A stretch of DNA of 21,505 nucleotides from IMG/VR virus record IMGVR_UViG_3300020477_000156, positions 1 to 21,505 of that record; one strand, written 5' to 3'. The notes beneath the pieces were generated by a model that searched no databases, was not told the DNA's origin, and saw nothing but the letters and a program-made list of their open reading frames with translations. The position numbers and the translations under genes were made by a program. Origin of the DNA: a virus. Below, one piece after another: positions 1,274-16,891 of this stretch (position 1 is its first letter; each line of letters opens with the position of its first letter).

Positions 1274-2071
1274 ATGAGGTCCCTTCCCGAAAGTTTACGG
1301 TACATCAGTCAGAGGGCAAGTAACGCCTTCGTATCTGGTAAATCAAACAACCTGTCTTCTGCCGTCAAAGAGGCTGTGCAAGGGCACAGTCTTAATGATG
1401 ATGAAAAGCATAGAGTTGTGGAGATGACAAACAGAATGACTTGGCAGTCTCTTTATAGCTCTTCAGACGACAAGACTTTCCAATTCGACCCGGCCCAGCC
1501 GAGTGATTTGGTAAGTTCTGAGCCCGCTCAGGTTGTTTCTGCTGTTCCTACTGGTGCTCTTGTGGATCGAGTTGATCCCGGGCCTACTCAGTTCCCTGTT
1601 CAAGAGTATATGAACACGCAACCGACAGACCCAGCACAACGACCTCTGGAGCTTGCTGCAGAAGCAAAGGTTGCTGCACAGGAACGCCGAGCCCAGCGAT
1701 GGGGTGCGCTAGCAAAGGTTGCCTCTGCAAAAGAGTCTTTTATCGACCAGGTTGTTGATGCCAGGTTCCACAATGAGCTCTCTGGGAAAGAAATTGTTGT
1801 TGCCGTAAGTGACATCACTACCAATCCCGATGCTGCAGCGCTTCTCATAAAAGAAGCGTTTGAGCGTGTTCGGGATATGGGTCTCTCTCCTCAGTTGGAT
1901 GTAGAGCTTCCTTCTCTATACGAGGTCGATGTAGAGCATAAGTTGCTCAAGACCTACGCTGAGTACGAAGGTGCGTACCAGGACGTAAATGCACACGAGA
2001 AAGCAGCAGCTTTCCTCACAGAAGTTGCAGAAGGTGCTGAAGTTCGCGCCAGACTTGGGGTTAAGAAATGA
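1274..2071 (+). CDS. probable head-module structural protein, function unknown
   Basis: This is the first gene of the rightward structural operon (265 residues), with GGAG 6 nt before the ATG. It is mostly helical. Near the N-terminus it has a segment L-N-D-D-E-K-H-R-V-V-E-M-T-N-R-M-T-W followed by K-T-F-Q-F-D-P, a pattern that resembles hypothetical proteins encoded near portal and protease genes of large phages (recalled, not searched). A central Ala/Lys-rich helix (about 125-155: LAAEAKVAAQERRAQRW) and a C-terminal helix carry K-V-A and E-K-A-A segments like those in neighbouring head proteins. Its stop overlaps the next start (ATGA), so the two are probably co-translated. An internal core or portal-associated role is inferred only from position. 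Confidence 0.7.
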   Translation: MRSLPESLRYISQRASNAFVSGKSNNLSSAVKEAVQGHSLNDDEKHRVVEMTNRMTWQSLYSSSDDKTFQFDPAQPSDLVSSEPAQVVSAVPTGALVDRVDPGPTQFPVQEYMNTQPTDPAQRPLELAAEAKVAAQERRAQRWGALAKVASAKESFIDQVVDARFHNELSGKEIVVAVSDITTNPDAAALLIKEAFERVRDMGLSPQLDVELPSLYEVDVEHKLLKTYAEYEGAYQDVNAHEKAAAFLTEVAEGAEVRARLGVKK

Positions 2072-3093
2072 GCAGTGCTGCAGGCTTACTTATCGCTCTT
2101 AATGAGCTTGATGACGAGATAACCGACGAGGACTTCGAGAAGGAGGCGAAGATTCGCCTGTCTCCGGCCCTCAAGAGAATGACCTCCAGCTTCTTCCGTC
2201 CATCGACCCGACGTCGTGCAGGCATGGCCGCTACTCTTGGCGGCATTGGTGGTGCGGGGTTTGCTTTAGGCAGAGCGTCTTCTTCTGTAGGGAAAAAGGC
2301 TGTAAAGACCCGAGGCGGGACCCTGTACCTCAGTGGACGAGACTACACGAAGTTCATGCAGATTCTTAAGAGTCAGGGCAAGCGGGCCGCAGCTAAGCAC
2401 GCTCTTAGTCTCATCAGGGGTGGTCGAGCACAGTTCACCCGGTCTATGGGTAAACGTGCCTCTGAAGAGGATTTCGAAAAAGAGGCGGCTCAGTTGAAAC
2501 TGCCTCTCCCAATGAAGAACAAGTTCCGAAGCTTCCTACAGCAGATTGGGAAGGTCACTAAGAAACCCTTCTTGTACGGAGCAGCGTTTGCTGGTGCTGG
2601 CGCTACCTATGGTCTAGGCGCAGAGCTTATTGACAGAACCACAGATGGAATACTTGAAAAGAAGCGGTTGGCATCTAAGTCCAAGCGGTTTCGCCAGACT
2701 GTAGATATTCTGAAGCAGACCTCAGAGCCTGAGGAGCTGTACGAGATGGGCTTAGGCCCAGACCCGCAGCGAGGGTACTACAAACCCTCAACCAGTAAGG
2801 CCATGCTGGAAGCAGCTGCGTACGACATGAAGAAAAAGAAGAAGAACATGCGGAACATGTTCGACCTTATGTACCGACAGACTCCATATGTAACAACCAA
2901 CCCGGTTGTCAGTTCTATTCTTCTTCGGGATTTCGTCAGTAAGGACAGTGGTCAGATGACCCACGACAAGCTGAAGCAGCTTCTGGATATAGAGAAGAAC
3001 ATGGTCAATATTCGTGAGATGGCTCCGTACCGAATTCGCATGAAGAAGCAGGTCGACCTATCTAGGGTGCTCATCCCGGAACTCGCTGTTTAG
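2068..3093 (+). CDS. basic structural protein with two duplicated DFEKEA/Gly-rich modules
   Basis: This 341-residue protein is strongly basic overall with acidic N-terminal segments. Two modules repeat. D-E-D-F-E-K-E-A at about 20-27 precedes a Gly/Ala-rich hydrophobic stretch at about 53-70. E-E-D-F-E-K-E-A at about 133-140 precedes a second one at about 169-186. The hydrophobic stretches look like glycine-zipper helices and could insert into membranes. The C-terminal third is Lys/Arg-rich (KKKKK near 252). It lies between the first operon gene and the protease, overlapping the former by 4 bp. The family is not recognised. A portal-adjacent, internal-head or ejected protein is possible; the DFEKEA motifs resemble candidate processing or targeting signals in other proteins of this window. 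Confidence 0.7.
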   Translation: MSSAAGLLIALNELDDEITDEDFEKEAKIRLSPALKRMTSSFFRPSTRRRAGMAATLGGIGGAGFALGRASSSVGKKAVKTRGGTLYLSGRDYTKFMQILKSQGKRAAAKHALSLIRGGRAQFTRSMGKRASEEDFEKEAAQLKLPLPMKNKFRSFLQQIGKVTKKPFLYGAAFAGAGATYGLGAELIDRTTDGILEKKRLASKSKRFRQTVDILKQTSEPEELYEMGLGPDPQRGYYKPSTSKAMLEAAAYDMKKKKKNMRNMFDLMYRQTPYVTTNPVVSSILLRDFVSKDSGQMTHDKLKQLLDIEKNMVNIREMAPYRIRMKKQVDLSRVLIPELAV

Positions 3094-3103
3094 GGAGCCA
3101 AGA

Positions 3104-4669
3104 ATGTACGAGCTGGAAAAACGCCCAGTATGGATTCCGGAGGGGGGAAAGAACTATTTTCTTCCCTACCAGGAAAGTCCACGAGCGCTGGAAAAGCTCG
3201 CTAGGGAACTGCATCCAGAGATAGACCGCTGGATTCGTACTTGGCAGACCAATCCCAGGTATCAGGTAGTAGTTATTGCGCCTATGGGCGCTAGCGAAGT
3301 GTGGGGCTGCAACAGCAATGGGGACTGGTTTAGTGAAGAGCAGCTAAACCCGAAGGGAACCACAGCTTACGGCTACAAGACATTCGAGAAAGCAAACCTG
3401 TTTGAGCATCACGCAAACAAGAACCCGGCCTTGTCTCGAGGACGAATTCCCCTGGCTGTGTGGAACGACAGAATGCGTCGTGTTGAGATAATTGCAGTAA
3501 ATGACCGTCACCGATGCGAAGAGCTTGGGTCCTCCGCGATAGTTGCAGACATCGATCTAGGAAAAATGCCCCCAGTTTCTATGGGAACTAGGGTTGCTTA
3601 CGATGTGTGCTCTAGGTGCGGAAACAAGGCAAAGACAACTAGAGAGTACTGCGGCCATCTCCGACACGAGATGGGACATGTCCGTTCCGATGGAACAGCA
3701 ACCTATGCGATAAACATTCGCCCCAGGTTTTTCGACCTAAGCTACGTGCATGTACCTGCCGCTAAAGAATCTGGCGTATTGGCTAAGGTTGCTAACCAGA
3801 AGACTGCTTACGATATTTATGTACCTCCAAAGACTGTGAAGGTTGCTGGGCCTAAGACAGCAGACGTTGATAAGTCAGCGGACATAGATAAGCAGGTCAC
3901 ACCCAATACTGTGCGCAAGGCAGTAGTAAAGCCTCTCGTTCGTAAAGAGGTTCCCATCCCAGATAAGCAACTGGCGGCTATGGACAGCTTCCCGCTCAAG
4001 AGCATTCTTGCGACGTTGGGGTTTGGAGGAGCGGTACTCTCTCCAAGAGAGTTTACTGTTTTGGTGTTGAGAAGAACTCAGCCACAGATGGTTTCCCGGG
4101 TGCCGGCATCCTTTAGCCTGCCCTGGACTCCCCGAGCTTCAGGGATGACGCCTATGGGGTTGGGGGACTATCGCCCTTCTTTGTTCCGACAGCTCCGTCC
4201 TGCAATTGCTCAAAGAAGCTTTTTCCCGAGGAGCCTGTCTATAAGGATTATGGGGCTTCGTAAGTCACCCCCTGCCGCACCTCCCGCTGTACCAGTAAAG
4301 GAAGCATCCTCTTTGCCGGAAGATACGCTGACAAAGTTGTCGGCAATGTATTCAGACTACCGAGCAAGCCTGACAGACTCATTTTTGCAACATTTTGACA
4401 CAGTATGCAAAACGCACCCAGAGGTTCTAAACCCCGAGAAAGATGCGCTTTTTGAGGGGTTGACTGGTGGGGAAAGTAAACATGCTGCAGCAAAAGTGAA
4501 TTTTGGGGGATTGGCGATGCTAGCCGCTCCCGTGTACCTTCTGAGTGCTCATCTCCAAGAGATGAGGGATTTGGAGCATGTGAAACTTGGAGAAGTCGAA
4601 AGCTTCATAGCAGGCAATCCAAACTTTCTTGCATCAGTTTTAGTAAATGCAGTTCGTGCTGCATTGTGA
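3104..4669 (+). CDS. prohead maturation protease with long C-terminal extension
   Basis: This 521-residue protein matches phage head maturation serine proteases in its first ~215 residues. G-C-N-S-N-G-D-W-F (68-76) is followed by a His pair in F-E-H-H-A-N-K-N-P (100-108), one being the likely catalytic His, and by P-P-V-S-M-G-T-R (156-163) with Ser159 as probable nucleophile. An inserted Cys/His group (Cys169, Cys172, Cys183, His185) looks like a zinc site. F-F-D-L-S-Y-V (209-215) closes the fold. In related phages this enzyme cleaves scaffold, capsid and internal proteins inside the prohead. Residues 220-260 contain three K-T-A or K-V-A segments, possibly self-cleavage sites. Residues ~290-521 form an extra region with Pro-rich linker and helices that may act as scaffold or core. 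A GGGAG site precedes the ATG. Assignment to the protease family is strong; the exact subfamily is not determined. Confidence 0.88.
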   Translation: MYELEKRPVWIPEGGKNYFLPYQESPRALEKLARELHPEIDRWIRTWQTNPRYQVVVIAPMGASEVWGCNSNGDWFSEEQLNPKGTTAYGYKTFEKANLFEHHANKNPALSRGRIPLAVWNDRMRRVEIIAVNDRHRCEELGSSAIVADIDLGKMPPVSMGTRVAYDVCSRCGNKAKTTREYCGHLRHEMGHVRSDGTATYAINIRPRFFDLSYVHVPAAKESGVLAKVANQKTAYDIYVPPKTVKVAGPKTADVDKSADIDKQVTPNTVRKAVVKPLVRKEVPIPDKQLAAMDSFPLKSILATLGFGGAVLSPREFTVLVLRRTQPQMVSRVPASFSLPWTPRASGMTPMGLGDYRPSLFRQLRPAIAQRSFFPRSLSIRIMGLRKSPPAAPPAVPVKEASSLPEDTLTKLSAMYSDYRASLTDSFLQHFDTVCKTHPEVLNPEKDALFEGLTGGESKHAAAKVNFGGLAMLAAPVYLLSAHLQEMRDLEHVKLGEVESFIAGNPNFLASVLVNAVRAAL

Positions 4670-4691
4670 GCCAACAAAAGGAGAGATAACC

Positions 4692-5258
4692 ATGGGACAC
4701 CCGATTACGGTGGATGAGTTAATTGCCTCTCTCCGAGATGATTCTCCAGCTCCTGCTCGCTCTGCCGAAGCTAGCCTGGTCGCCAGGCTTAGTGAGGTTC
4801 GAGAGAAGACAGCTGCTGCAGTTGAAGCTCCGGAAGACAACTATGATTCGTTGTCTCTGGAAGAGTTGACGCAGTTAGCTTCTCAGCGTGTAGGAACTAC
4901 TGAGGTTGTCGAGGAATCTGCCACTGCCGAAAAGAAGGCTGAGGAAGTAGAAGAGACCGAAGAGGTCGAAGCTGCTACTGAAGTCGACACTGAGGCTGAC
5001 GCAGAGGCTACCGAAGAGGTAGCTGAAGAGACAAAGGAAGCTTCTGATGAGGTGACCGAGGAAGAGCCCGTTGCTGAGCTGGATAAGACAGCTGAGGAGC
5101 GTGCGATCTTCGGTGCGCAGGTTGCTGCGCATGCCTTCATGCAGGAGATTGAGTTGATTAAGCAGGCCAATGTTTTGGGTCTGTGTCGTTTCTGCAAAGA
5201 AGCTGAGGTCATTGAGGGGCAGAGTTCCTGCACCTCATGCACTCAGGAAGGGGAGTAA
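4692..5258 (+). CDS. acidic head protein with C-terminal Cys4 motif
   Basis: In this 188-residue protein the middle (about 70-130) is an extremely Glu-rich, probably disordered or coiled-coil stretch. E-K-T-A occurs at 38-41 and D-K-T-A at 131-134. A segment F-G-A-Q-V-A-A-H-A-F-M-Q-E-I (140-153) resembles the LGRxMA segment of three other small proteins here. The last 25 residues hold Cys165-x2-Cys168-x11-Cys180-x2-Cys183, a probable zinc ribbon. The ATG at 4692 is preferred over an in-frame upstream one at 4647 because AAAGGAG stands about 8 nt before it and the earlier start would overlap the protease gene. Its place between protease and capsid genes, and its acidity, suggest a scaffold, core or internal head protein. 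Confidence 0.75.
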   Translation: MGHPITVDELIASLRDDSPAPARSAEASLVARLSEVREKTAAAVEAPEDNYDSLSLEELTQLASQRVGTTEVVEESATAEKKAEEVEETEEVEAATEVDTEADAEATEEVAEETKEASDEVTEEEPVAELDKTAEERAIFGAQVAAHAFMQEIELIKQANVLGLCRFCKEAEVIEGQSSCTSCTQEGE

Positions 5259-5260
5259 TT

Positions 5261-5674
5261 ATGAGCAATACCGTTCAAGCCCTTCTTGATGCAGCTCTGG
5301 GATCTCTTTCCGATGACGAGCAGACCAAGACTGCTTCTGAGGAAACAGGTACTAGCGTCGTGGAGATTCTGGAGAAGGCTGCCGAGGAGCTCGAGAAGCT
5401 CGCCGGCCATCCTGCTCTGAAGAGTCACGAAGCTGCTCAGGCTGCTACTCCGGCGAGTGTTGATGCGCAGAACGCCTCTATTGGCGATGCACTGAAGCAC
5501 AAGCCGAAGTCGATGGGCACCAAGGATTTGAAGCATGGCAACATCGCCAAGCAGGGTAGTGAGGAAGAGGTTGAGGCAGTCGAGACTGATGACAATCAGT
5601 CGGACCGTCTTCGTCAGGCTCTCATCGCCAAGCTTCGTGCAGCAGATGTTGCTGAAGTTGGAGGTGCAGCGTGA
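5261..5674 (+). CDS. small acidic head-module protein
   Basis: This 137-residue protein starts at the ATG preceded by GGGGAG; an in-frame upstream ATG at 5237 would lie inside the previous gene. K-T-A-S occurs at 23-26, then a Glu-rich helix (33-48), a polar middle, and a C-terminal D-R-L-R-Q-A-L-I-A-K-L (115-125). That last segment is nearly the same as the end of the protein at 10273-10704 (D-R-L-R-S-V-L-I-G-K-L), so the two share a C-terminal helix and probably a binding partner. The stop overlaps the next GTG start. Scaffold or internal-head roles fit the position, but no family was recognised. Confidence 0.7.
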   Translation: MSNTVQALLDAALGSLSDDEQTKTASEETGTSVVEILEKAAEELEKLAGHPALKSHEAAQAATPASVDAQNASIGDALKHKPKSMGTKDLKHGNIAKQGSEEEVEAVETDDNQSDRLRQALIAKLRAADVAEVGGAA

Positions 5675-6042
5675 GTGAAACAACTGTAATCAGCGATAAG
5701 CTGACTGAGATTGCAGGACTGCTTCGTCAGGCTGCTTCTCAGTACACCACTGAGTCCGAGAAGGTTGCTACTGACCGTGATGAGCTTGAGCAGCTCCGTC
5801 GTAAGACGGCTGCTGGGCAAATTGCCAAGGTTGCTGCCGACCAGGGCTTCATTGATGACGACCAGGTTGATGGGTATGCAGATACTCTCGTTGATGACGA
5901 GACTGCAGACCTCGAGACCTTGATGACCAAGATGTCTTCTGTAGCTCCCCGAGTTCGTCTCGGTGCTGCAGATCCTACTTTCAACACTGATAGCGGTACA
6001 GGCGAGAGTCGCCTCGTGTCTCGCTTAACTCGAAACGTATAA
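5671..6042 (+). CDS. small helical head-module protein
   Basis: This 123-residue protein starts at GTG within a 4-bp overlap with the preceding stop (GTGA), implying coupled translation. The first ~60 residues form a charged helix (E-S-E-K-V-A-T, then E-L-E-Q-L-R-R-K-T-A). The motifs E-K-V-A, R-K-T-A and A-K-V-A fall within 30 residues. The C-terminal third is Gly/Ser/Thr-rich and less ordered (A-A-D-P-T-F-N-T-D-S-G-T-G-E-S-R). Position directly upstream of the decoration and capsid genes is typical of scaffold components. Concentration of candidate protease motifs would suit a protein degraded during head maturation. This is inference; no family was recognised. Confidence 0.68.
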   Translation: MSETTVISDKLTEIAGLLRQAASQYTTESEKVATDRDELEQLRRKTAAGQIAKVAADQGFIDDDQVDGYADTLVDDETADLETLMTKMSSVAPRVRLGAADPTFNTDSGTGESRLVSRLTRNV

Positions 6043-6055
6043 GGAGGCGACCAAA

Positions 6056-6583
6056 ATGGCCGTTAATATTCTTAGTGGTTCGGCGGATCTTTACCGAGCA
6101 GCTGTTACGCTCGGTGATACCACGCTTTCGGACCCCACCCCCGCTGCTGGTGTGCAGTCTCTTAAAGATGGTGAGTTTCTATTCCCCCTGGACGCTAGTG
6201 CAGGTACCACAGGTTGGCGACGACTTGCTGGTAATGACGAGGACGCACAGCCCGCCGATGGTATTCCTGTCATGGTCTTTGACCAGCCAGGAGACATGGC
6301 TCGTCAGGCAACTGGAAAGGTCTGCGTGATCAAAGAGGCTTCCTGGACTATGGAGACCGATATGTATCAGCAGGATAGTCTGACTCCTGCGAGCTACGCG
6401 ATCGCGACTGAGCTGACTGTCCGACACGTTAACCCCGCCACTACGGCAGATCCTAACTTCAGTCGTAGTGTTCTGGCTCCCGCTGCCGCGGGCGAGCAGA
6501 TTGTTGGAACCGTAGAAGCCGCTCCGGCGACTATGGGCAGTCTTATGGTCGTACGCATTAACCTGTCCGGCGAAGCCGTTTAA
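6056..6583 (+). CDS. probable capsid decoration/stabilisation protein
   Basis: This 175-residue protein has a strong AAGGAGG site before the ATG. It is Ala/Gly/Thr/Val-rich with alternating hydrophobic segments, few helices and no Cys4 or E-K-T-A motif. The pattern (short beta strands separated by Gly/Asp/Pro turns, for example G-E-F-L-F-P-L-D, G-I-P-V-M-V-F, S-L-M-V-V-R-I-N-L) fits a small beta-barrel. It sits immediately before the major capsid gene, the usual place for lambda gpD-like or other head decoration proteins. The good ribosome site suggests high expression. The sequence alone does not tell a decoration protein from another small beta-rich virion protein. Confidence 0.6.
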   Translation: MAVNILSGSADLYRAAVTLGDTTLSDPTPAAGVQSLKDGEFLFPLDASAGTTGWRRLAGNDEDAQPADGIPVMVFDQPGDMARQATGKVCVIKEASWTMETDMYQQDSLTPASYAIATELTVRHVNPATTADPNFSRSVLAPAAAGEQIVGTVEAAPATMGSLMVVRINLSGEAV

Positions 6584-6608
6584 CTGAGCTAATTAGGAGA
6601 ATTGAAAA

Positions 6609-7688
6609 ATGACTACTGAAGTGAATGCTTCAATTATCAATGCTCAGTTTGTGGAGGATATCCAGACTCCCGGCGAGCGTGAGAAGACTGCCGCAGAGAT
6701 TGGCGCTTTCTTGCAGGACAAGATGCGCGAGCGCAGTTTCGCTGACAATGTTATCCCGGTGAAGCCGGTTAGCCGTCAGGATCTGCAGATCTCTGAAAAC
6801 CATGACACGCCTGTGTACATTGACTTCCTGCAGCCGAATAGCGAGGCCATGGCGATCTCGTTCCGAGGCCGTCCGGATGTCAACTATGTCACCGGCGCTC
6901 GCTATTCGATCCCCTTCTTCACGGTCTCGTCTCTTGAGTACGAGAAGGCTGTCCAGGAGCTCCTGGTCTATCCCTACCCCGTCATGAAGGTGATTGAGGA
7001 CCAGGTTGTCCGGGACATGGAGGGAATCAAGGATTTCTACTTCATGACCTATGTCGAGGCCGCTGCCCAGCGTAGCGCCACCCTGACTACAGGACAGTAC
7101 ACAGCCGGTCGAATCATCCGTGGCGAGGAGGCGGTTGCCGCCTACGCTGCTGCGGGTGCCTACGACAACGCTGTGGGCCGTGTCCAGCGTAATGACCTTA
7201 TCCAGCTCGGTAAGATCTTCTCGAACAGCCGTCGGCCCAAGGGATGTCTCCTTTGGTCTTCGCCTGATTGGGATGATGTTGCTGCGTGGACCATCGAGGA
7301 CTTCGGTGATGGCCAGGAGCGAGTGACCTTTAAGGGACTCGGCAAGGGCAACATCGGTGTCGGTAGTGACTCTGTGAAGTGCATTATCTCGATTAAGGTT
7401 GACCTGGTTATCCCCGGTAATGTCTACCTGTTCGCCCCGCCTGAGTATCTCGGTCGGAACCTGCTGCTGAATGGCACGCAGTTCTGGGCTGAGAAGAAGC
7501 GAAACATGATTCGCTTCATGGGTTGGATGGACTGCGGCATGGGCATCGGAAACGTTGCTTCGGTCGCTAAGTTGGAGTTGTACAACCGAGCCGCTTCGCT
7601 CACTCTGCCTGCTGAGTCTACCGTCGGTGGTGGTGTGTTTAATGAGGCTGCTACCGGGTTCACTTACCCGCAGGTTGAGCAGTTCTGA
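6609..7688 (+). CDS. major capsid protein, probably HK97 fold
   Basis: This 359-residue protein has TTAGGAG upstream of the ATG. Features expected of an HK97-type shell protein are visible. A charged N-terminal segment (about 1-45) precedes R-S-F-A-D-N-V-I-P-V (42-51). After it come an extended strand/E-loop-like region with P-V-Y-I-D-F and a long spine-like helix around E-Y-E-K-A-V-Q-E-L (about 112-120) and V-V-R-D-M-E-G-I-K-D. The C-terminal half is alternating beta-rich. E-K-T-A occurs at residues 25-28, so proteolysis there would remove a short N-terminal arm as in other maturation-protease phages. Position after protease, small acidic proteins and decoration gene supports the call. Codon use is more C-ending than in neighbours, consistent with high expression. 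Confidence 0.82.
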   Translation: MTTEVNASIINAQFVEDIQTPGEREKTAAEIGAFLQDKMRERSFADNVIPVKPVSRQDLQISENHDTPVYIDFLQPNSEAMAISFRGRPDVNYVTGARYSIPFFTVSSLEYEKAVQELLVYPYPVMKVIEDQVVRDMEGIKDFYFMTYVEAAAQRSATLTTGQYTAGRIIRGEEAVAAYAAAGAYDNAVGRVQRNDLIQLGKIFSNSRRPKGCLLWSSPDWDDVAAWTIEDFGDGQERVTFKGLGKGNIGVGSDSVKCIISIKVDLVIPGNVYLFAPPEYLGRNLLLNGTQFWAEKKRNMIRFMGWMDCGMGIGNVASVAKLELYNRAASLTLPAESTVGGGVFNEAATGFTYPQVEQF

Positions 7689-7690
7689 TA

Positions 7691-8236: not shown

Positions 8237-8238
8237 AC

Positions 8239-8505
8239 ATGGCACGCAGCATAGCTATCGCAGGGCAAATACTCGGTCCGGGGCAGCTTGCTGAGGTCCC
8301 AGAAGCTAACTGGTCAGGCGCTGACGAAGAATGGGTCAAACGTGGCCTTGTCAGCGTCCTGACCAGGGCTAATGGGGTTGTCGTTGTTAAGAGCAATCTT
8401 CCCGCAGAGCGTGTCTCTGCTCCCGTCCCTCCTCCCTCTGCTTCGGAAGATGAGGAGGAGAAGCCGAAAAGAAAAACTCGTCGACGGGCTAAGAAGAGCG
8501 AATGA
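8239..8505 (+). CDS. short protein with very basic tail
   Basis: This 88-residue protein begins 2 bp after the preceding stop. The N-terminal half (I-A-I-A-G-Q-I-L-G-P-G-Q, then E-E-W-V-K-R-G-L-V-S-V-L) looks like a small folded beta/alpha unit. A Pro/Ser/Glu linker follows, and the last 16 residues are mostly Lys/Arg (K-P-K-R-K-T-R-R-R-A-K-K), suited to contacting DNA. Its stop overlaps the next ATG (ATGA). The short N-terminal domain after a capsid gene resembles small head or connector accessory proteins seen in many phages, but the similarity is general only. Confidence 0.65.
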   Translation: MARSIAIAGQILGPGQLAEVPEANWSGADEEWVKRGLVSVLTRANGVVVVKSNLPAERVSAPVPPPSASEDEEEKPKRKTRRRAKKSE

Positions 8506-8984: not shown

Positions 8985-8993
8985 GTTTTTCCC

Positions 8994-9028: not shown

Positions 9029-9466
9029 ATGTTTGGTGAAGACATGGATCTAACCAAGATCAGCGCTGCCGATTTCCTTGCTGCTCTGGAGCAGGCTGAG
9101 ACAGCCGAGACTGAGACCACCGAGGAAGTAGAGAAGACTGCTTCTCAGGTCGTTTCTGAGCTTACTGATGAGGACCTCGAGAAGATTTCTGCTGAGGACC
9201 TGATGGAGCTTCTGGCTGCCGTTGAGCAGGAAGAGGCTGTAGCCGAGAAGACCGCTGCCCTTCAGGGTGGTGACTACGATGGCTATGCCCTTGCCGGCGA
9301 GGTCATGGGAACTGCGATGGCTGAGGCCTTTGCTGCGAACATGAACAAGATGGCTGCTGATGAGGCCCCGGAAGAGGAAGTTGACCTGAGTCAGATTTCC
9401 GCTGCCGAGCTTCTGAATGCCATCGCCGAGATGGAGCAGGAAGAGGGTCAGTCCCCTTTAGCCTAA
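9029..9466 (+). CDS. acidic protein with three ISAAELL-type repeats
   Basis: This 145-residue protein is very acidic and has almost no basic residues outside the K-T-A segments. Three copies of a short helix repeat: K-I-S-A-A-D-F-L-A-A-L-E-Q-A-E (10-24), K-I-S-A-E-D-L-M-E-L-L (52-62) and Q-I-S-A-A-E-L-L-N-A-I (122-132). E-K-T-A occurs at 35-38 and 73-76. Y-A-L-A-G-E-V-M-G-T-A-M-A-E-A-F (86-101) resembles the LGRxMA segment of other small proteins here. The ATG at 9029 is preferred to one at 9023 because GGAG (9018-9021) is 7 nt before it but only 1 nt before the other. Acidity, repeats and E-K-T-A suggest an internal head or scaffold-like protein, but this is inference. Confidence 0.72.
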   Translation: MFGEDMDLTKISAADFLAALEQAETAETETTEEVEKTASQVVSELTDEDLEKISAEDLMELLAAVEQEEAVAEKTAALQGGDYDGYALAGEVMGTAMAEAFAANMNKMAADEAPEEEVDLSQISAAELLNAIAEMEQEEGQSPLA

Positions 9467-9729: not shown

Positions 9730-10259
9730 TGGAACAGCAGGTCTTCTCTGCAACCTTCGTAAAGGAGGTTTCCGATTCTCTCGGTGCAGAGAAGACAGCT
9801 ACTGTTCTAGGTCCTGCTACTCGAAGTATTGGTCGTGGGGTTGGTGAGCTAGCCAAACGGTTTTTATCCAGTGTCTCCGGGAAAACTACTGCAGATAAGG
9901 CTCTTGCGTTAGCAAAGCATCCTGCGATCAAGGCTTACTTTCCTGACCAGACTGAGGCGCAGATAATCAAGCGTCTTCGGGCTGGGAAGCTAGGTGAGGG
10001 GATTCGCTATACGGCTAAGGGGACTCAGAAGGTTGTTCCTGTTCCAGGGGCACCGAACAAGAAGATGCTTGAAAGGGTGAATCCTTTCGAGGGTCAGGGG
10101 TACAATCCCGAAGTTGTTAAGAAGCTCCAAGACCTTGCGAAGGCAAGAGGAGTTCAGAAGGTTACTCGTTTAGCTACACTTGGTGGAGCTGGTTACGGGT
10201 ATTCGAAGTATAAGAAGACCAGGCCACGCCTCTCTACCTACGGTGGATACGGCTACTAA
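9729..10259 (+). CDS. basic accessory virion protein with FVKEV/EKTA N-terminus
   Basis: This 176-residue protein overlaps the preceding stop by one base (TGATG). The N-terminus holds T-F-V-K-E-V-S (9-15) and then A-E-K-T-A-T-V-L-G (20-28), two short motifs that recur in other proteins of the window. The rest is basic and mixed, with K-H-P-A-I-K-A-Y-F-P-D-Q-T-E-A-Q-I-I-K-R-L near the middle. A Gly/Tyr-rich end follows (A-T-L-G-G-A-G-Y-G-Y, then K-Y-K-K-T-R-P-R and Y-G-G-Y-G-Y). The N-terminus looks like a removable targeting peptide. An internal, packaged protein is the favoured reading; no enzymatic motif is visible. Confidence 0.65.
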   Translation: MEQQVFSATFVKEVSDSLGAEKTATVLGPATRSIGRGVGELAKRFLSSVSGKTTADKALALAKHPAIKAYFPDQTEAQIIKRLRAGKLGEGIRYTAKGTQKVVPVPGAPNKKMLERVNPFEGQGYNPEVVKKLQDLAKARGVQKVTRLATLGGAGYGYSKYKKTRPRLSTYGGYGY

Positions 10260-10272
10260 CTGTGAGGATCAA

Positions 10273-10704
10273 ATGAACAGGGCATTAGCAGAGCTGTACG
10301 GGACAGTATCCCGAGAAACGCTTAACAAGATGGCCTCTGCTGCTGGTGAAGTTGAGACTAGTGATGAACTAGACCTCTCCAACATCTCTGCAGCCGAGCT
10401 TCTTAACCTCCTCTCCGCAGACGACGTTGATGTCGATGCAGAGCCGGTCGAAGAGAAGACCGCTGAGGTTGAGACTTCTGCCGAGTCGGTAGAGGATTCT
10501 GATGAGGGCGAAGAGAAGGTTGCTTTCAGCGACGACGAATTCATGCAGTATGACACTCTGGGTCGCATCATGGCGCACCAGGTATACGCTGAGCTCGACG
10601 ATGCAGGGACTGAGACCACGGATGAGTCTGAGAAGGTTGCAGAAGACGCTGCCTCTCAGGCCGACCGACTTCGCAGTGTCTTGATCGGCAAGCTCTCCGA
10701 GTAA
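10273..10704 (+). CDS. acidic protein of the LGRxMA/ISAAELL family
   Basis: In this 143-residue protein the ATG at 10273 has GAGG about 7 nt upstream; an earlier in-frame start at 10180 would lie inside the preceding gene. Recognisable parts are N-K-M-A-S (18-22), L-S-N-I-S-A-A-E-L-L-N-L-L (35-47) and E-K-T-A at 61-64. E-K-V-A follows at 81-84, then Y-D-T-L-G-R-I-M-A-H-Q-V-Y-A-E-L (93-108), another E-K-V-A (120-123) and the C-terminal D-R-L-R-S-V-L-I-G-K-L-S-E (131-143). It combines segments seen separately in the proteins at 9029, 16703 and 5261, so it links them into one family. Strongly acidic between motifs. Likely an internal head or scaffold-type protein; the function is unknown. Confidence 0.72.
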   Translation: MNRALAELYGTVSRETLNKMASAAGEVETSDELDLSNISAAELLNLLSADDVDVDAEPVEEKTAEVETSAESVEDSDEGEEKVAFSDDEFMQYDTLGRIMAHQVYAELDDAGTETTDESEKVAEDAASQADRLRSVLIGKLSE

Positions 10705-10714
10705 GGAGAGAACG

Positions 10715-11521
10715 ATGCGCAGCCCCTTTGCTGGCTTTGTAAAGGAAGCTGCGTCTCGAGGTCGAGAGAAGTACCTTAGAGCACAGACGCAGGCGCACCT
10801 TCCCATGCAGGAGAGGGTGCGCTTGTATCGTTCTGGCCTACAGGAGCACCCAAAGAGAAAAGAGTTCACCTCTGGAGCAACCAAGGGGGCTTTAGGTTAT
10901 GGACTTGCTATTGGAGTGCCTGCTAGTCGTGCTTTGGACGGTAGGGCAGCTCAAGAGTTGGCGAGTCTAGTTGCTTCTGGTGGAGCAAGTTCTAACGACC
11001 TACAGTGGCTGACTTCTAAAGGGGTTCTCGATAAGAAGCAGTTTGGCAGCCGAGAGGTCCCTAGAACGCGAATGCAGCGTTTCAAGAGGGTGACCCCGAA
11101 GCGAGAGACGGTTGTCACCTCGGACTCCATTCTGAAGGCGTTCAGGCCCCGAGCGGTATATCGAGCCGCAGGAGAGGTCAATGTTCAGGCCTTAAAGGGT
11201 TTGGGATCTCCAGTCTCTCCTCCTGTAGAGGCTTTCCTTCGAAGAGCTAATACTCGGAAGTTGGGAGCAGCGCTCCTTGCTCTTGGGGTAGGTGCTGGTC
11301 TTGGTGGGATGACCGAGTTGACCAAGTACAAGGACATCAAGAAGACCGATAAGCAACTTGCTAAGAAGCTTCTCCGGGGTGACCTCTCTCAGAGAGCCTT
11401 TACAGACGATCTCGTCAAGTATGTCTTTGCTCCTATGGCACTTGGGTCAGCTATGTCTCGAGTAGGTCCTGCTATTGCTGGTCAGAAAGATCTAGCAAGA
11501 CTCTTCAGGGGAATGCGGTGA
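10715..11521 (+). CDS. basic protein with FVKEA N-terminus and two Gly-rich hydrophobic segments
   Basis: This 268-residue protein has AAGGAGAG before the ATG. Residues 1-25 read M-R-S-P-F-A-G-F-V-K-E-A-A-S-R, resembling the E-F-I-x-E-A capsid-targeting sequence of T4 internal head proteins in pattern. Gly/Ala-rich apolar stretches lie at 54-74 (GATKGALGYGLAIGVPA) and 183-200 (LGAALLALGVGAGLGGM). Between them is a basic region (P-R-T-R-M-Q-R-F-K-R). The stop overlaps the next GTG start. This layout would suit an ejected protein that inserts in the host membrane, or a DNA-binding core protein. Family not recognised. Confidence 0.67.
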   Translation: MRSPFAGFVKEAASRGREKYLRAQTQAHLPMQERVRLYRSGLQEHPKRKEFTSGATKGALGYGLAIGVPASRALDGRAAQELASLVASGGASSNDLQWLTSKGVLDKKQFGSREVPRTRMQRFKRVTPKRETVVTSDSILKAFRPRAVYRAAGEVNVQALKGLGSPVSPPVEAFLRRANTRKLGAALLALGVGAGLGGMTELTKYKDIKKTDKQLAKKLLRGDLSQRAFTDDLVKYVFAPMALGSAMSRVGPAIAGQKDLARLFRGMR

Positions 11522-12423
11522 TTTACGTCACAGCTATTCGGATCGAGTTTATCACTCGAGAAGTTCTGCGGATTAATTGGGAGATTCGTGACCACTTCGA
11601 GACCATAGGTAACTACCGATTTACGGTTCTTAGGTCGAACTCCCCAGAAGGTCCGTATGTAGCTGTTTCTCCGGCTCTGACTGATACCTACGTTTTTGAT
11701 GACATCAGTGTAGATATGCATTCTCTTCATAGAGAGTGGTACTACCAGATTCAGGTAGTTAACGCGGTAACAGCAGAGACCGTGGTGTACGGAGCTAATG
11801 ACCCAGATGAGACCTATCTAAATGGTGCTCGACCAGGTGGTGTAGCTCCCCAGGCTCCACCAGATAAGATTGTCACCGAGTCTAGGTATCGCCTAAATCT
11901 GGTTCTTAAAGAGTTTAGTGGGCGGCGGGTACTTTGGTTCCCGAAGCGTACTTTTGGTCAGCTCTGCACAAACTGTGTAGACGAGCTGACTCAAAAGAGG
12001 ATGCAGAGTCGTTGTCTTGAGTGTTATGGCTCTTCTTTTTCTGGGGGGTACTTTAACCCCGTAGAGATCTACGCTCAGATGGGTCCTTCTATTGATAAGG
12101 ATATTCTGCACTGGATAGGGCAGATCGAACCTAGACAGTCCGTCATACTTATTAATGGTGTCTACCGACCAAAGCCGGGCGACTTGCTTTGCGAAGTAGA
12201 AGGTCGTCGGTGGATAATCGACCGGGTACAGCCGACAGAGAAGCTACGTTCCAGGGTTCGTAACACGATGGTTGCGCACGAACTTACCAAGGGCGAGGTA
12301 GAATTTGATATACGAGTTAACTGGAGTAGAGACAGTCTTACGGCAAGTCCCTTGAGGCAGTTTCTTCCAGTAACTGATGTAGAATCCTATCGGTCTGCTC
12401 TGAGCGACATCAACCAGGTTTAG
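11518..12423 (+). CDS. neck/connector-like protein with FN3-like domain and Cys4 motif
   Basis: This 301-residue protein starts at GTG in a 4-bp overlap (GTGA). Residues ~4-95 show the strand pattern of a fibronectin-III/Ig-like domain (V-L-R-I-N-W, then Y-R-F-T-V-L-R-S-N-S-P-E-G-P-Y, then W-Y-Y-Q-I-Q-V-V-N-A). Cys150-x2-Cys153-x12-Cys166-x2-Cys169 is a probable zinc ribbon. The C-terminal part (176-275) is beta-rich, with G-D-L-L-C-E-V-E-G-R-R-W-I-I-D-R-V near 221-237. It looks like a head-closure or adaptor type fold. No E-K-T-A motif is present, unlike the head proteins. Position between the connector-like gene and the tail terminator fits a neck component. The domains are reasonably clear; the neck role is inferred. 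Confidence 0.6.
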   Translation: MIYVTAIRIEFITREVLRINWEIRDHFETIGNYRFTVLRSNSPEGPYVAVSPALTDTYVFDDISVDMHSLHREWYYQIQVVNAVTAETVVYGANDPDETYLNGARPGGVAPQAPPDKIVTESRYRLNLVLKEFSGRRVLWFPKRTFGQLCTNCVDELTQKRMQSRCLECYGSSFSGGYFNPVEIYAQMGPSIDKDILHWIGQIEPRQSVILINGVYRPKPGDLLCEVEGRRWIIDRVQPTEKLRSRVRNTMVAHELTKGEVEFDIRVNWSRDSLTASPLRQFLPVTDVESYRSALSDINQV

Positions 12424-12425
12424 TT

Positions 12426-12992
12426 ATGCACAAGTTGATTCCTGCGAAGTACTTAATGCCTAAGCTAGGTAGTCAGCGTCCGGATAACGTATCCCCGGCT
12501 GTGTGGCAGGTAGTGACTCGCCAACCAACTAAAGATGAGAAACAAAAGCGATTAAACAAGTTGATTGCTGCAACTGCGTTGGCTGGTGGGGTAGGCTTTG
12601 CAGGTGGCAAGATGTTATCTCGAGTACTTCAGGGGTCTAAGTATTCTCCCAAGGAGCTCAAGAGACTTCGTCGGGCTGTAGTACTGCTGGGTCTGTTGGG
12701 TTCGCCTCCTGCAACCTACATGATTGGAAGGAAGGCATACGTTGGTAACCCGGTCACAGAACTACGAGCAGTTACTCACGGCAGTAAGGCAGTACAACCC
12801 GGTAACCGGGGACTGGATGAGGGACTCCACCCACATCCTCCTAAGGTTCCTGCGGGACTTGTATTTCCAGCACGACCCCCAGGACTTCCACTGGGAGCCC
12901 TCCCAGGAAGCCACAGAGGTGGAAATCCGGGCGACGCGGACAGTCGATATAAGTACGTTGGAACGCCGGCCCGCCATCCTGGTGCATCGTAA
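12426..12992 (+). CDS. basic Gly-rich membrane-like protein with overprinted C-terminus
   Basis: This 188-residue reading frame starts 2 bp after the preceding stop. Residues 1-105 look genuine: a basic N-terminus, L-I-A-A-T-A-L-A-G-G-V-G-F-A-G-G (46-61), basic K-E-L-K-R-L-R-R, then A-V-V-L-L-G-L-L-G-S-P-P (84-95). From about residue 106 it runs in a different frame through the start of the tail-terminator gene, and the residues become Pro/Gly/His-rich, as expected of an out-of-frame reading. Either the ancestral stop was lost and the tail is an overprinted extension, or a sequence error moved the frame. The body resembles other Gly-zipper proteins of this window. Function unknown. Confidence 0.5.
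   Translation: MHKLIPAKYLMPKLGSQRPDNVSPAVWQVVTRQPTKDEKQKRLNKLIAATALAGGVGFAGGKMLSRVLQGSKYSPKELKRLRRAVVLLGLLGSPPATYMIGRKAYVGNPVTELRAVTHGSKAVQPGNRGLDEGLHPHPPKVPAGLVFPARPPGLPLGALPGSHRGGNPGDADSRYKYVGTPARHPGAS
12726..12735 (+). promoter_or_regulatory. ribosome binding site fixing a TTG start
   Basis: GGAAGGAAGG ends 6 nt before TTG at 12742. This purine block is the best Shine-Dalgarno match near the start of the next gene and favours TTG 12742 over TTG 12724, which it overlaps. It lies inside the coding frame of the preceding gene. Confidence 0.6.
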
Positions 12993-13506
12993 CCAGTTCC
13001 GGTACGGTGTGACCTCGGTTGATTTGAAGCGTGATTTAGACATGACTACAGGGAACTACACAGAGATGGATCTAGTAGCTGGGAGCTACACAATCCACTG
13101 TTTGTCCCCTGAAGGACTAGAAGCCGAGAGGTTGGCCCTGATTACTGCTCGAGGGCTGCGACATTTTCGCCAGAATCTAAAACTTGCAGGGTTTTTTCAG
13201 GTAGGTCGTTCGATTACTATTGGCGAAGAGCAAGATGCGTATAAGGTGATTCAAGATCAAGCAAAGAATCAATATGTTGATGTTCCAGTAGCCTTTCCTG
13301 TTTATTACCAAGAAGGTGTTACTATCACTCGGCCGACATCTGGTCAGACTCTGGCCGATGAGATTGACATTACTTTGCGAGGTCGTGGTACTAAGATTGA
13401 CGACAAGAACAGAGAACTCCCGTATTATCCTGCACAAGTGGATGGGCAAGGCAATCCTTCCGGTCCGAACATCGTTGTGCAGCAATCTCAGCTGGATAAC
13501 AGCTAG
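12742..13506 (+). CDS. probable tail terminator/tail completion protein
   Basis: This 254-residue protein starts at TTG with a strong upstream purine block. An N-terminal helical part (Q-N-Y-E-Q-L-L-T-A-V-R-Q-Y, then H-I-L-L-R-F-L-R-D-L-Y-F-Q) is followed by beta-rich segments (R-P-A-I-L-V-H-R-N-Q-F-R-Y-G-V). A helix then holds E-R-L-A-L-I-T-A-R-G-L-R-H-F-R-Q-N-L, and a final beta/turn part is Thr/Gly-rich. The gene ends 11 bp before the sheath gene. Proteins of this size and position in contractile-tail phages are tail terminators or sheath-terminating neck proteins. The first 251 bp overlap the preceding reading frame; this frame is the clearly coding one. Assigned by context and fold pattern, not by motif. 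Confidence 0.55.
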   Translation: MVTRSQNYEQLLTAVRQYNPVTGDWMRDSTHILLRFLRDLYFQHDPQDFHWEPSQEATEVEIRATRTVDISTLERRPAILVHRNQFRYGVTSVDLKRDLDMTTGNYTEMDLVAGSYTIHCLSPEGLEAERLALITARGLRHFRQNLKLAGFFQVGRSITIGEEQDAYKVIQDQAKNQYVDVPVAFPVYYQEGVTITRPTSGQTLADEIDITLRGRGTKIDDKNRELPYYPAQVDGQGNPSGPNIVVQQSQLDNS

Positions 13507-13517
13507 GAGACGTAAAA

Positions 13518-15914
13518 ATGGCTGAGCTGGCTCGCCCTGGCGTTGAAATTCAGCAGGTAGTTGCAACTACCAGCCCCACAATTCTGCAACCCGCACTGAT
13601 GCCCTGTCTGGTGGCTCCGTGTAACCGAATCGTAGATGCATTTACATCTTCGGGTGCGGTGAACACGCTTGCTCGTGCTGGTGCGTATACCAATGGTGTT
13701 GGCACAGTTGCATACTCGTTCCCGCAGTTCACGTACGGTACGGGCAGTGACTTGATGCACGGGAATGAAGCCCGAGCCTGGATTGAATCTGGGTCGAGTA
13801 CTGCTGAGCTTAACAGTGCTGCAGACGAGGTTGTTGTCCAGGCTGGTGCTGGTGGCTGGAGCTATGTAGCAAGTACTCGCACACTGACACTGGTTGGAGC
13901 GCTGGCCGACAGCCTAGGAATGGCTGCTGGTGACGTGGTGCGACTCACGACGGTTGGCGATGATGGCCCTGTTGCCAACGGGACCGATGCTCTAGATGTT
14001 GTTATCGTCAGCATTACCTCCGAGACGGCTGTAGTCATTCGAACTATCGATGACTGGGGTCACGATGTCGCTGGTGGCGCATCTCAGGCGGGGTGGAAGC
14101 TAATCAAGAACCCCGCAGAGTTCATGGTTCATACGGGAGCAGCTATAGGCTCTACCCGGCGAATTACGACAAATGCCGCAATAAGCAGTACCACCACCAA
14201 CCGTGGTGTAGACATTACAGCGGTAACTGCTGGTTCGGCTGGCGATGCGATTACGGTTACTTTCGACAGTACGGCTTCTGCTATCGCGGTGGCCAGGTCC
14301 GGTAACGCGATTACGGTTGATTACGTTGGTACTACTTCTACGTGGGCTCAGATTAAAGCGGCGTGGGATGCAACCAGCATTGATGAAGATCTAGCTACGT
14401 TTACCGTTCTTGGTACCGGAGGAGACGCAGTACCTGCTGTGGCAGACCTTCGCTCTACGAATGGCGGAACAGGCGCGACCTACTCCTTAGATGGAGGTGC
14501 AGATAGTGGCACTCTGGTGGTGGATGAAGATCTACTTGCCACAAAGTTCTCGATTGCATCAACTGCTCTGAGCGGCTTCATCCTTATGCAGTACACAGCA
14601 CTGCGACGGGACGTAACAAACGCCGGTGCTACTCCAGCCCTGCTTCGATTCGATAGCGAGACAGCGATGGTTGCCTCCATCGGTCCGGTCGATACTCGAA
14701 ACCCACTGGCCCTCATGTTTTCGATGGCGCTCAAGAACTCCCCCGGAAAGACAGTTTCTGGAATAGGTATTGATGAGCAGTCTCCTCAGTTCCCAGAAGG
14801 AACTGTTGCTGCCTATACGAGAGCTTTCACATTCCTTGCCTCTAAAGAGGTGTATGCAATTGCTCCCTTCTCTCAGAGTTCGGCAGTTCACCAGGTACTC
14901 AAGACACACGTTACTGCGATGTCTGCTTCTACTGAGAAGCATGAGCGAATCGGAATTGTAAGCAGGCCTCTGGTTACTAATCAGGCCGATACGGTACTTG
15001 GAAGCGGTACGACGACAGGAGATATTACTGTCGGCGGTAACTTCACATCTGGTGATAACTTCACAACGATGGCTGTTACTGCTGGTGATGTGCTCGTAAT
15101 TGCCAGCGAAGCAGGTCCATTTGCTCTGGGTAACGGTCTGACTGGTTGGCGAGTAGCGTCTATTTCTGGCGATACAACTATTGCTTTGAATGCAACAGAT
15201 GTATCTTCTCAGGCCCCCACGGCGAATTCATCTGCTACCTGGACGATTTATCGACCTGGTGCAACAGCTACCTCCAATCTCCAGGAGGCTGAAGCTGTAG
15301 CTGCTTACAGCTCTGGGCTTGGAACTCGACGAATGGTTCAGGTACTTGCTCCGCAGGTAACAGTTACCGTTGGTGGAAGTCAGCAGCTGGTGTCGGGAGC
15401 ATTTGCTTGCGCAGCCTTCGCCGGCCAGATTGGCGGAATCGATGTTCAGAAGCCGCACACCAACCTGACTCTTACTGGGTTGGATGCTGTAAAGAATACT
15501 GGAGATCGCTACAGTACGTCCGAACTGGACACGATAGCTGGTGGGGGTACAACTATTCTCGTACAGGATCTGCCGAGTGGTCCGGTTATAGTTCGTCACC
15601 AGCTCACTACAGATGTTTCGACAATTGAATACCGAGAGTTGTCTATTACTAAGGTACTGGACTACCTCTCCAAGTTCTTCCGAAACACGCTTAAGCCCTT
15701 TATCGGGCAGTTCAATATTACCGGCGGGTATATGGACACGATGGGTACTCTGATTGAGGGTCAGCGCTCTGCTCTGATTGCTCGAGGGACCATTTCTAAC
15801 CTGACGATCAACAGCTTAATCCAGAGCACTACTCAACCTGATACCGTAGAGATCGACCTATCGGTCGCTGTTTACTATCCCGCCAATTACATTCGGGTCA
15901 AACTGATCATCTGA
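13518..15914 (+). CDS. contractile tail sheath protein
   Basis: This 798-residue protein has GGAGACG before the ATG. The N-terminus A-R-P-G-V-E-I-Q-Q-V fits the start of phage tail sheath proteins (x-x-P-G-V-Y/E). The central part includes V-Y-A-I-A-P-F-S-Q-S (about 451-460). The C-terminal ~110 residues (about 690-798) show the conserved sheath end: Y-R-E-L-S-I-T-K-V-L-D-Y-L, R-N-T-L-K-P-F-I-G-Q-F-N, and a final beta hairpin rich in V/I. Residues ~225-330 form a Thr/Gly/Ala-rich insert with two A-I-T-V strands and a T-x-x-Q-I-K-A-A-W helix, a beta-sandwich insertion seen in several sheath and tail proteins. The protein is longer than common sheaths (about 400-660 residues). It polymerises around the tube and contracts at infection. 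No E-K-T-A motif was seen. Confidence 0.88.
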   Translation: MAELARPGVEIQQVVATTSPTILQPALMPCLVAPCNRIVDAFTSSGAVNTLARAGAYTNGVGTVAYSFPQFTYGTGSDLMHGNEARAWIESGSSTAELNSAADEVVVQAGAGGWSYVASTRTLTLVGALADSLGMAAGDVVRLTTVGDDGPVANGTDALDVVIVSITSETAVVIRTIDDWGHDVAGGASQAGWKLIKNPAEFMVHTGAAIGSTRRITTNAAISSTTTNRGVDITAVTAGSAGDAITVTFDSTASAIAVARSGNAITVDYVGTTSTWAQIKAAWDATSIDEDLATFTVLGTGGDAVPAVADLRSTNGGTGATYSLDGGADSGTLVVDEDLLATKFSIASTALSGFILMQYTALRRDVTNAGATPALLRFDSETAMVASIGPVDTRNPLALMFSMALKNSPGKTVSGIGIDEQSPQFPEGTVAAYTRAFTFLASKEVYAIAPFSQSSAVHQVLKTHVTAMSASTEKHERIGIVSRPLVTNQADTVLGSGTTTGDITVGGNFTSGDNFTTMAVTAGDVLVIASEAGPFALGNGLTGWRVASISGDTTIALNATDVSSQAPTANSSATWTIYRPGATATSNLQEAEAVAAYSSGLGTRRMVQVLAPQVTVTVGGSQQLVSGAFACAAFAGQIGGIDVQKPHTNLTLTGLDAVKNTGDRYSTSELDTIAGGGTTILVQDLPSGPVIVRHQLTTDVSTIEYRELSITKVLDYLSKFFRNTLKPFIGQFNITGGYMDTMGTLIEGQRSALIARGTISNLTINSLIQSTTQPDTVEIDLSVAVYYPANYIRVKLII
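14247..14318 (+). repeat. direct repeat inside the sheath insertion domain
   Basis: GCGATTACGGTT occurs at 14247-14258 and again at 14307-14318, exactly 60 bp apart in the same frame, encoding A-I-T-V twice. It marks a duplicated beta strand in the inserted domain rather than a mobile or regulatory repeat. Confidence 0.55.
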
Positions 15915-15938
15915 GCCCGCAGCGCAAGGAACTGACTA

Positions 15939-16685
15939 ATGGCGAATCGCACAGTTGCTGAATTTGACTTCTTCAATAAGTCCGTACAATCCGGTCTTAC
16001 GGAGGGTCAGTTTGTAAATGCTGAGTCGATCCTTATTGCCTGTGGACCGCCTAACCTGGCGGCTATGGCTGGCAGTGATGGAGTTACCTCGACATCACAG
16101 ACTGTCGCTTTCCCTCTTGGGAAGGTGCAGCAGTTCAGTTTGGGACAGAATACGGCTTTCCAGCGAATCTTTGAGATTGGCTCGAAGAGGTCGTACTTCA
16201 TCTCTGGTCGATCTGTAGGAACTCTCGGTCTTGGTCGAGCGTACTACCACGGACCTTCCTTGCTCCGTGCTGCGTATGCCTACTACGCGTCCCCGAGCAG
16301 TAGCGGTATTAATATCACTGCGATGTACGACAACGGCGATGCTATGAGCAACGTCAATCCTCACGATGTACAGATTGCTCCTGGTTCCGGAGCAAATGGG
16401 AACCTTTGGTTGAACCTCGCTTCGGACATCTTCAGCCAGCCTATGGGCTTCCTGATTATGATTCGTGACAGCAACAACGCTACCGTTGGTGCTTTCTATG
16501 CCGAGTACTGCGTTATTCCGACACACGGATTCCAGTTCGACAGCCAGTCGGTTGTTGTCCAGGAGCAGGCAAGCTTCCTCTTCGAACGTCTTGTACCCAT
16601 CAATCTGACGGGTATTGTTGAAGTCTTTGGTACAGCAAGCGACCCGCACGGAATTATAGGTAAGGCCGTCGGTCTCAACAGCTAG
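15939..16685 (+). CDS. tail tube protein
   Basis: This 248-residue protein begins 25 bp after the sheath stop with AAGGAA upstream, the usual sheath-tube order of contractile-tail phages. It is beta-rich with few charged helices. G-K-V-Q-Q-F-S-L-G-Q-N-T and Q-R-I-F-E-I-G-S-K-R-S-Y-F-I-S-G-R (about 61-92) look like the conserved core strands and loop of large-phage tube proteins. The next segment G-L-G-R-A-Y-Y-H-G-P-S-L-L and the C-terminal E-R-L-V-P-I-N-L-T-G-I fit stacking rings. It lacks Cys clusters and the E-K-T-A motif. Chaperone genes would be expected next; here two accessory genes and a reverse-strand island intervene. Confidence 0.75.
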   Translation: MANRTVAEFDFFNKSVQSGLTEGQFVNAESILIACGPPNLAAMAGSDGVTSTSQTVAFPLGKVQQFSLGQNTAFQRIFEIGSKRSYFISGRSVGTLGLGRAYYHGPSLLRAAYAYYASPSSSGINITAMYDNGDAMSNVNPHDVQIAPGSGANGNLWLNLASDIFSQPMGFLIMIRDSNNATVGAFYAEYCVIPTHGFQFDSQSVVVQEQASFLFERLVPINLTGIVEVFGTASDPHGIIGKAVGLNS

Positions 16686-16702
16686 TTAGTGGAAGCACTC
16701 TG

Positions 16703-16891
16703 ATGGACAACGATTTCGAAAAGAATGACCGCCTGGGTCGCCTGATGGCGCAAGAGTTCATCAGTGAGCTCGAGCGTATTGAAAAGACGGCCTCCGAGTC
16801 TACAGAGCCGGTTGAGGCTCCTATAGAGGGCAAGAGCCCTTCCTCTGTTTTGCGAGAGCTGCTTCAGCAGACACAGTCTCCTACAGCGTAG
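16703..16891 (+). CDS. small acidic protein of the LGRxMA family
   Basis: This 62-residue protein has GGAAG about 9 nt before the ATG. It consists almost wholly of the segment N-D-R-L-G-R-L-M-A-Q-E-F-I-S-E-L (8-23) followed by I-E-K-T-A-S-E-S (27-34), and ends in P-S-S-V-L-R-E-L-L-Q. The same combination occurs in the middle of the 143-residue protein at 10273. It is the smallest member of this family and shows that the LGRxMA segment plus E-K-T-A can stand alone. Its location after the tube gene is far from the head block. Function unknown. Confidence 0.68.
   Translation: MDNDFEKNDRLGRLMAQEFISELERIEKTASESTEPVEAPIEGKSPSSVLRELLQQTQSPTA

Follow-up and report, generated by a model that had tools for sequence, protein, structure and literature searches.

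Herpesvirus assemblins process sites of the form V/L/I-X-A|S, in which P1 is Ala and P1' is Ser. In phage T4, the measured motif of the prohead protease gp21 is L/I-X-E, and 10 N-terminal residues of IPIII suffice as a capsid-targeting sequence (PMC9026906). For SPN3US, the motif was measured as A-X-E followed by Ser at P1' (PMC10052503), and C-terminal self-processing is known for the SPN3US protease gp245 (PMC5694885) and for phiKZ gp175 (PMC9026906). Here we analyzed the complete IMG/VR record IMGVR_UViG_3300020477_000156 (21,505 bases, called the window below), which is a genome fragment of a phage whose tail is contractile. A reading of the sequence alone (the sequence-only reading) had noticed E-K-[T/V]-A in head and accessory proteins and proposed that it was either a maturation-protease motif or a packaging tag. 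The comparative evidence strongly supported the former, from which we infer cleavage: the motif is very probably the processing signal of this phage's own prohead protease, including sites at which the protease processes itself. The true motif is wider than proposed, [L/M/F/I]-x-K-x-A-[S/A/G/E/Q], in which K and A are strict and E and T/V are preferences only. The protease and the major capsid protein (MCP) carry it as follows.

3104-4669, + strand: prohead protease, 521 residues, matching a PHROG head maturation protease
3200-3793, + strand: catalytic domain, about residues 33-230, confident in a model built with 42 relatives
3194-3202, + strand: K31-L-A33, predicted N-terminal self-processing site; K-x-A present here in 62 of 62 proteases
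3785-3793, + strand: K228-V-A230, predicted C-terminal self-processing site; K-x-A present here in 55 of 62 proteases
3800-3880, + strand: cluster of K-[T/V/S]-A in the protease tail, at residues 233, 246, 251 and 257
6609-7688, + strand: MCP, with E25-K-T-A28 at 6681-6692

The protease matched phrog_18299, a head maturation protease, at 2e-7, and 37 of its 42 relatives matched PHROG head maturation proteases below 1e-5. Pfam and NCBIfam gave it no useful name, and a sequence search of the PDB with the protease profile found nothing; the fold search alone gave matches. The best structural matches of the model were herpesvirus assemblins and T4 gp21, with Z scores up to 10.4 (varicella-zoster virus protease), where unrelated rows began at 5.5. 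The candidate catalytic residues H103 and S159 were invariant in 42 sequences, and profile comparison aligned S159, the serine of GKMPPVSM, with the S140 region of T4 gp21. Since the flanking residues 26-32 and 232-280 were predicted with low confidence and residues 33-230 with high confidence, the two K-x-A sites mark the borders of the catalytic domain. Site counts were made on 62 non-redundant proteases, for the places just before and just after the catalytic domain. At the N-terminal site, the residue two before K was L/M/F/V/I in 59 and the residue after A was S/A/E/G in 58, while x was free. A CxxC...CxH knuckle (residues 169-185, positions 3608-3658) lies within the catalytic domain, shortly past the serine; it was nearly invariant in the 42 relatives and probably binds zinc.

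The locus resembles T4 in the fold of the protease by structure comparison, in two specificity residues one apart, in sites (predicted ones here) in the MCP, core and internal proteins with multiple sites in the scaffold, and in an N-terminal leader on internal proteins, of which the forms found here are candidates (PMC9026906). It differs in that T4 cuts after Glu, whereas here Lys and Ala are fixed and Glu is a mere preference, and in having the knuckle within the catalytic domain. The systems of phiKZ gp175 (S/A-X-E) and SPN3US gp245 share large myovirus heads, many cleaved internal proteins and C-terminal self-processing of the protease (both predicted here), and they too favor Ser behind the two fixed residues (PMC10052503, PMC5694885). 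They also cut after Glu, and SPN3US gp245 is reported to be uncut at its N-terminus, unlike the proteases here, in all 62 of which a site precedes the catalytic domain. The fixed Glu at P1 of all these motifs is absent from this family, where Lys and Ala are strict instead. The herpesvirus assemblins, closest in structure, have an aliphatic P3 where Lys stands here, and no sequence similarity to them was detected. In the literature, we found neither a prohead protease cutting at Lys or K-X-A nor a paper on the related phage Arash, within a coverage that left out most subscription journals. The system is of a known kind, and its K-x-A specificity is apparently undescribed. It would add to a fold in which the members described from T4 and giant phages cut after Glu, and it bears on the evolution of specificity between T4 and herpesviruses.

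The relatives were L001 (MCP 78% identical), Salmonella phage Arash and Vibrio phages D69, D148 and D181. Bacillus phage G, Rhodococcus phage E3, Gordonia phages and many mycobacteriophages including Myrna were related through the protease alone. The protease gene lies just upstream of the scaffold and MCP genes in the window, L001, Arash and D69. The MCP of the window was a profile match to the phage G MCP (6wkk, 5.5e-5). K-x-A was found at one place of the N-arm in 36 of 36 non-redundant MCPs, and K26 and A28 were invariant in nine closer relatives. The homologous position reads LVKEAG in Arash and LTKEAG in D69. Conservation in relatives, which had been proposed as a check, thus holds family-wide and at homologous places in both MCP and protease.

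Enrichment was measured without bias over 2000 residue pairs (20 x 20, gaps of 0-4). Scanning viral contigs with alignments yielded 80 loci for the protease and 73 for the MCP, which were then reduced for redundancy; when the protease, the tube protein or a 62-residue open reading frame (ORF) was searched against viral contigs as a single sequence, no relatives were found. In genes -2 to +3 around the protease of 58 non-redundant contigs, protease excluded, K.A ranked first of the 2000 pairs (1203 observed, 456 expected, z 36.9), followed by L.K and M.K. These 1203 sites gave a sharp logo whose information was confined to about -4 to +4; two residues before K, L/M/F/I strongly predominated, and Pro was absent at x. 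K.A sites of neck and tail genes had no such logo. Substituting any other residue for either fixed one abolished the excess, which fell from 8.9-fold to 1.6-fold with R at K and to 1.2-fold with S or G at A. The excess of phi-x-K-x-A, where phi is a hydrophobic residue, was 7.0-fold at -2 and 7.1-, 8.7- and 7.4-fold at +1, +2 and +3, and about 1-fold at +7 and +8. It formed a gradient from 7-9-fold in scaffold-like genes to about 1-fold in tail genes. The syntenic ORFs of Arash and D69 were likewise full of phi-x-K-x-A.

In the window, every copy of E-K-[T/V]-A or D-K-T-A listed by the sequence-only reading was found in frame, as were the looser K-x-A sites in the protease and in the ORFs at 1274 and 5261, and EK[TV]A was indeed absent from the decoration, neck, terminator, sheath and tube proteins. 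Loose K-x-A occurred once each in the decoration (IKEAS, residue 93) and sheath (IKAAW, residue 280) proteins. Against shuffles within each protein, EK[TV]A was observed 10 times with 0.39 expected, a count equaled in 0 of 500 shuffles, and K[TV]A 24 times with 5.1 expected. Control words were not enriched (ER[TV]A 0, EE[TV]A 1, E.KA 3), and K.A was at chance in 21 other ORFs of the window (17 observed, 17.7 expected). K.A ranked second in the pair scan of the window after C..C, which topped the pair scans because of the protease knuckle. The claim that codons vary and that selection acts on protein held for the codons of Thr/Val and Ala, but those of Glu and Lys were almost all GAG AAG. Because GAG and AAG are the common codons here (GAG 196 vs GAA 86, AAG 161 vs AAA 35), this gave no sign of a motif in the DNA. 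The DNA pattern GARAARRYNGCN had 12 forward and 0 reverse matches, and a reversed control pattern had 1. With variable Thr/Val and Ala codons and Glu/Lys codons that track usage, a DNA-level motif was ruled out.

Enrichment over a whole genome was examined in the complete genome of Arash with the pattern [LMFI]-x-K-x-A-[SAGEQ], x after K not being Pro. The head cluster gp218-226 held 29 extended motifs vs 1.5 expected. The other annotated structural proteins, a label whose basis the record does not state, held 18 vs 6.4 expected, and all remaining proteins 8 vs 9.0. The motif was therefore in excess in the head cluster and at chance in non-structural proteins, and the equal frequency in non-virion proteins that would speak against a virion motif was not seen. 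The strict E-K-[T/V]-A, taken as a unit, proved too narrow, with densities of 0.18 in structural and 0.16 in hypothetical proteins per 1000 residues in Arash. The head genes of T4, scanned in the same way as a positive control, put I.E first and L.E fourth of 2000, which recovers the measured gp21 motif.

The maturation-protease reading is supported by the positions of the motif in the MCP, protease and scaffold-like proteins, by the gradient, by the chance level outside the structural proteins of Arash, and by the T4 control. We propose that the protease (3104-4669), as a serine protease of assemblin/T4-gp21 fold, would read [Leu/Met/Phe/Ile]-x-Lys-x-Ala-[Ser/Ala/Gly/Glu/Gln] and cut there. 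During head assembly it would free itself at K31-A33 and K228-A230, the MCP would lose about 28 N-terminal residues at E25-A28, and the motif-rich scaffold/core-like proteins encoded beside the protease would be broken up. Such a cleavage code, read from sequence, would be testable for the head proteins of a widespread, little-studied phage group. It would let scaffold, internal and possibly ejected proteins be picked from unannotated genomes, and mature virion proteins be predicted.

Several observations weigh against this reading. Residues K26-A28 of the MCP lie within a confidently predicted helix (residues 21-42), and protease cut sites are usually extended. The phage G MCP has no K-x-A, though the phage G protease carries both sites, and 7 of the 62 proteases lack the C-terminal site (one being a truncated ORF). 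The second control, SPN3US, was weak, with A.E at rank 84; taken with T4, this indicated that the scan can recover a true cleavage motif, not always. Cleavage itself is what we infer from these patterns. The signal was also weaker in the heads of phage G, Myrna-like mycobacteriophages and E3, whose proteases are sequence relatives of the window protease. K.A ranked third in phage G head genes and seventh in Myrna head genes, and the MCPs of Myrna and E3 have K-L-A in their N-arms. In the head genes of the high-GC phage E3 (L010), R.A ranked 21 and K.A 680, so that a Lys-to-Arg shift in the same specificity is possible there.

As for the scissile bond, the analogy with T4, phiKZ and SPN3US, which fix P3 and P1 with a single residue between them, places the cut somewhat more probably after Ala (K-x-A|S, with Lys at P3, Ala at P1 and a mostly small P1', such as SPN3US and the herpesviruses also have) than after Lys. 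A cut after Lys, [L/M]-x-K|x-A, would keep the hydrophobic P3 of T4 and swap its P1 Glu for Lys. The L/M/F/I two before K, like the L/I at P3 in T4, fits it, as do the roughly symmetric logo around the K-x bond and the absence of Pro at x. It would, however, put Glu, Val, Thr, Leu or Gln, bulky or charged, at P1' and the strict Ala at P2', and the preference for Ser/Ala/Gly falls one residue past Ala, like the P1' of SPN3US (PMC10052503); we regard this cut as possible and somewhat doubtful. Its products would escape ordinary tryptic searches. An improbable alternative is that the K-x-A peptides are not cut and remain intact as docking motifs, which bind a shared partner (MCP or protease) and gather the core proteins. 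Docking motifs do come in many copies per protein, a conserved leader often precedes K-x-A in the ORFs at +1/+2, and the MCP copy is predicted to be helical, but docking would leave unexplained why the motif brackets the catalytic domain of the protease at both borders, and two strict residues one apart are the P3-x-P1 form of T4, phiKZ and SPN3US sites. That the motif merely reflects acidic, coiled, Lys/Ala-rich proteins is hardly credible. E, K and A do abound in these proteins, and pairs of the E...E type were raised in D69 as well, but shuffles preserving composition failed to yield the motif, R for K or S/G for A abolished the excess, and both MCP and protease keep the motif at homologous places.

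In some of these proteins, the presumed K-x-A processing site comes right after a conserved leader. The sequence G-x-[I/V]-M-A-[R/H/N]-x-F-x-x-E-L-x-K-x-A was found in eight ORFs at +1/+2, and a profile of the part before K found further copies, mostly with K-x-A immediately after. The long form GRIMARAFxDELxKxA was mostly internal or C-terminal in the ORFs at +1/+2, and shorter forms began unrelated proteins encoded by the same phage. From +6 outward, genes showed an excess of phi-x-K-x-A in the first 30 residues only. The form F..[EDA]phi.{1,3}K.A occurred 22 times in the first 30 residues vs 0.6 expected, and its R.A control once vs 0.5. In the window, the ORFs at 4692, 10273 and 16703 carry the leader or a degenerate form. 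By analogy, the leader resembles the T4 capsid-targeting sequence, and the packaging tag may be partly right too: the conserved peptides right before the motif fit it. The leader (GRIMARAFxDELxKxA or N-terminal F..EL.K.A), probably helical, may bring a protein into the prohead and then be cut off. In its widest form, at which we arrive tentatively as close to evenly balanced, both leader forms would be one transferable capsid address tag with a cleavage site. The tag would load many different proteins, perhaps a virion RNA polymerase, across a large clade (many genomes of about 130-210 kb), and within the assemblin fold the protease would represent a branch specific for Lys-x-Ala. Should the leader prove to be a targeting tag, phage heads would gain a new handle for loading cargo.

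The remaining features of the window that bear the motif are listed below. The head cluster (1274-7688) consists of a motif-bearing ORF, an ORF, the protease, three small ORFs, the decoration protein and the MCP, and is followed by neck, accessory and tail genes, with the sheath at 13518-15914.

1274-2071, + strand: motif-bearing ORF, K-x-A at residues 32, 132, 148, 193 and 243; homologue of the motif-rich D69_268 (blastp 1e-9)
2068-3093, + strand: ORF with loose FEKEA at residues 25 and 138; homologue in L001
4692-5258, + strand: motif-rich scaffold/core-like ORF, EKTA (residues 38-41) at 4803-4814, DKTA (131-134) at 5082-5093; degenerate leader FGAQVAAHAFMQEIELIKQA at 5109-5168
5261-5674, + strand: scaffold/core-like ORF, KTA at 5327, KAA at 5375, KLA at 5396
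5671-6042, + strand: scaffold-like ORF, EKVA (residues 30-33) at 5758-5769, KTA at 5803, KVA at 5827; weak PHROG head scaffolding match (E 0.07), L001 homologue 56%
9029-9466, + strand: accessory ORF, EKTA (residues 35-38, 73-76) at 9131-9142 and 9245-9256, KMA at 9347; ISAAELL-type repeats; matches a scaffold-like ORF adjoining the protease in L012
9729-10259, + strand: ORF with EKTA near its N-terminus (residues 21-24), at 9789-9800
10273-10704, + strand: motif ORF, KMA at 10327, EKTA (residues 61-64) at 10453-10464, EKVA (81-84, 120-123) at 10513-10524 and 10630-10641; leader-like GRIMAHQVYAEL at 10561-10596
10715-11521, + strand: ORF with N-terminal FAGFVKEAAS, KEA at 10742-10750
16703-16891, + strand: 62-residue ORF, little beyond leader and site, GRLMAQEFISELERIEKTAS; leader at 16736-16774, EKTA (residues 27-30) at 16781-16792; 24-residue match (62%) to the +2 ORF of L021

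A second repeated word, DLSxISAAELLxxL (DLTQISAADFLDAL in L012), was present in several copies in the ORFs at 9029-9466 and 10273-10704 and in the +1 ORF of L012.

Arash gp242 (L006, 36467-37336), a structural protein encoded far from the head cluster, has six copies of the extended motif and is probably an internal head protein. The large subunits of RNA polymerase in Arash (gp206; L005, 30093-34670) and D69 (D69_261; L007, 3289-7872) both start with MPK-[S/K]-AS; it is possible that they are virion RNA polymerases with a head-processing signal. Myrna gp97 (L011, 11896-15531), described in its record as a tape measure, holds a domain related to the window protease, and its gene stands directly before the decoration-like and MCP genes; rather than a tape measure, it is more likely a protease whose long tail is scaffold-like. 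In the window, the + strand ORFs 12426-12992 and 12724-13506 share about 270 bases, read in different frames. Because relatives match the second, one of the two may have been mis-called, the first at its end or the second at its start.

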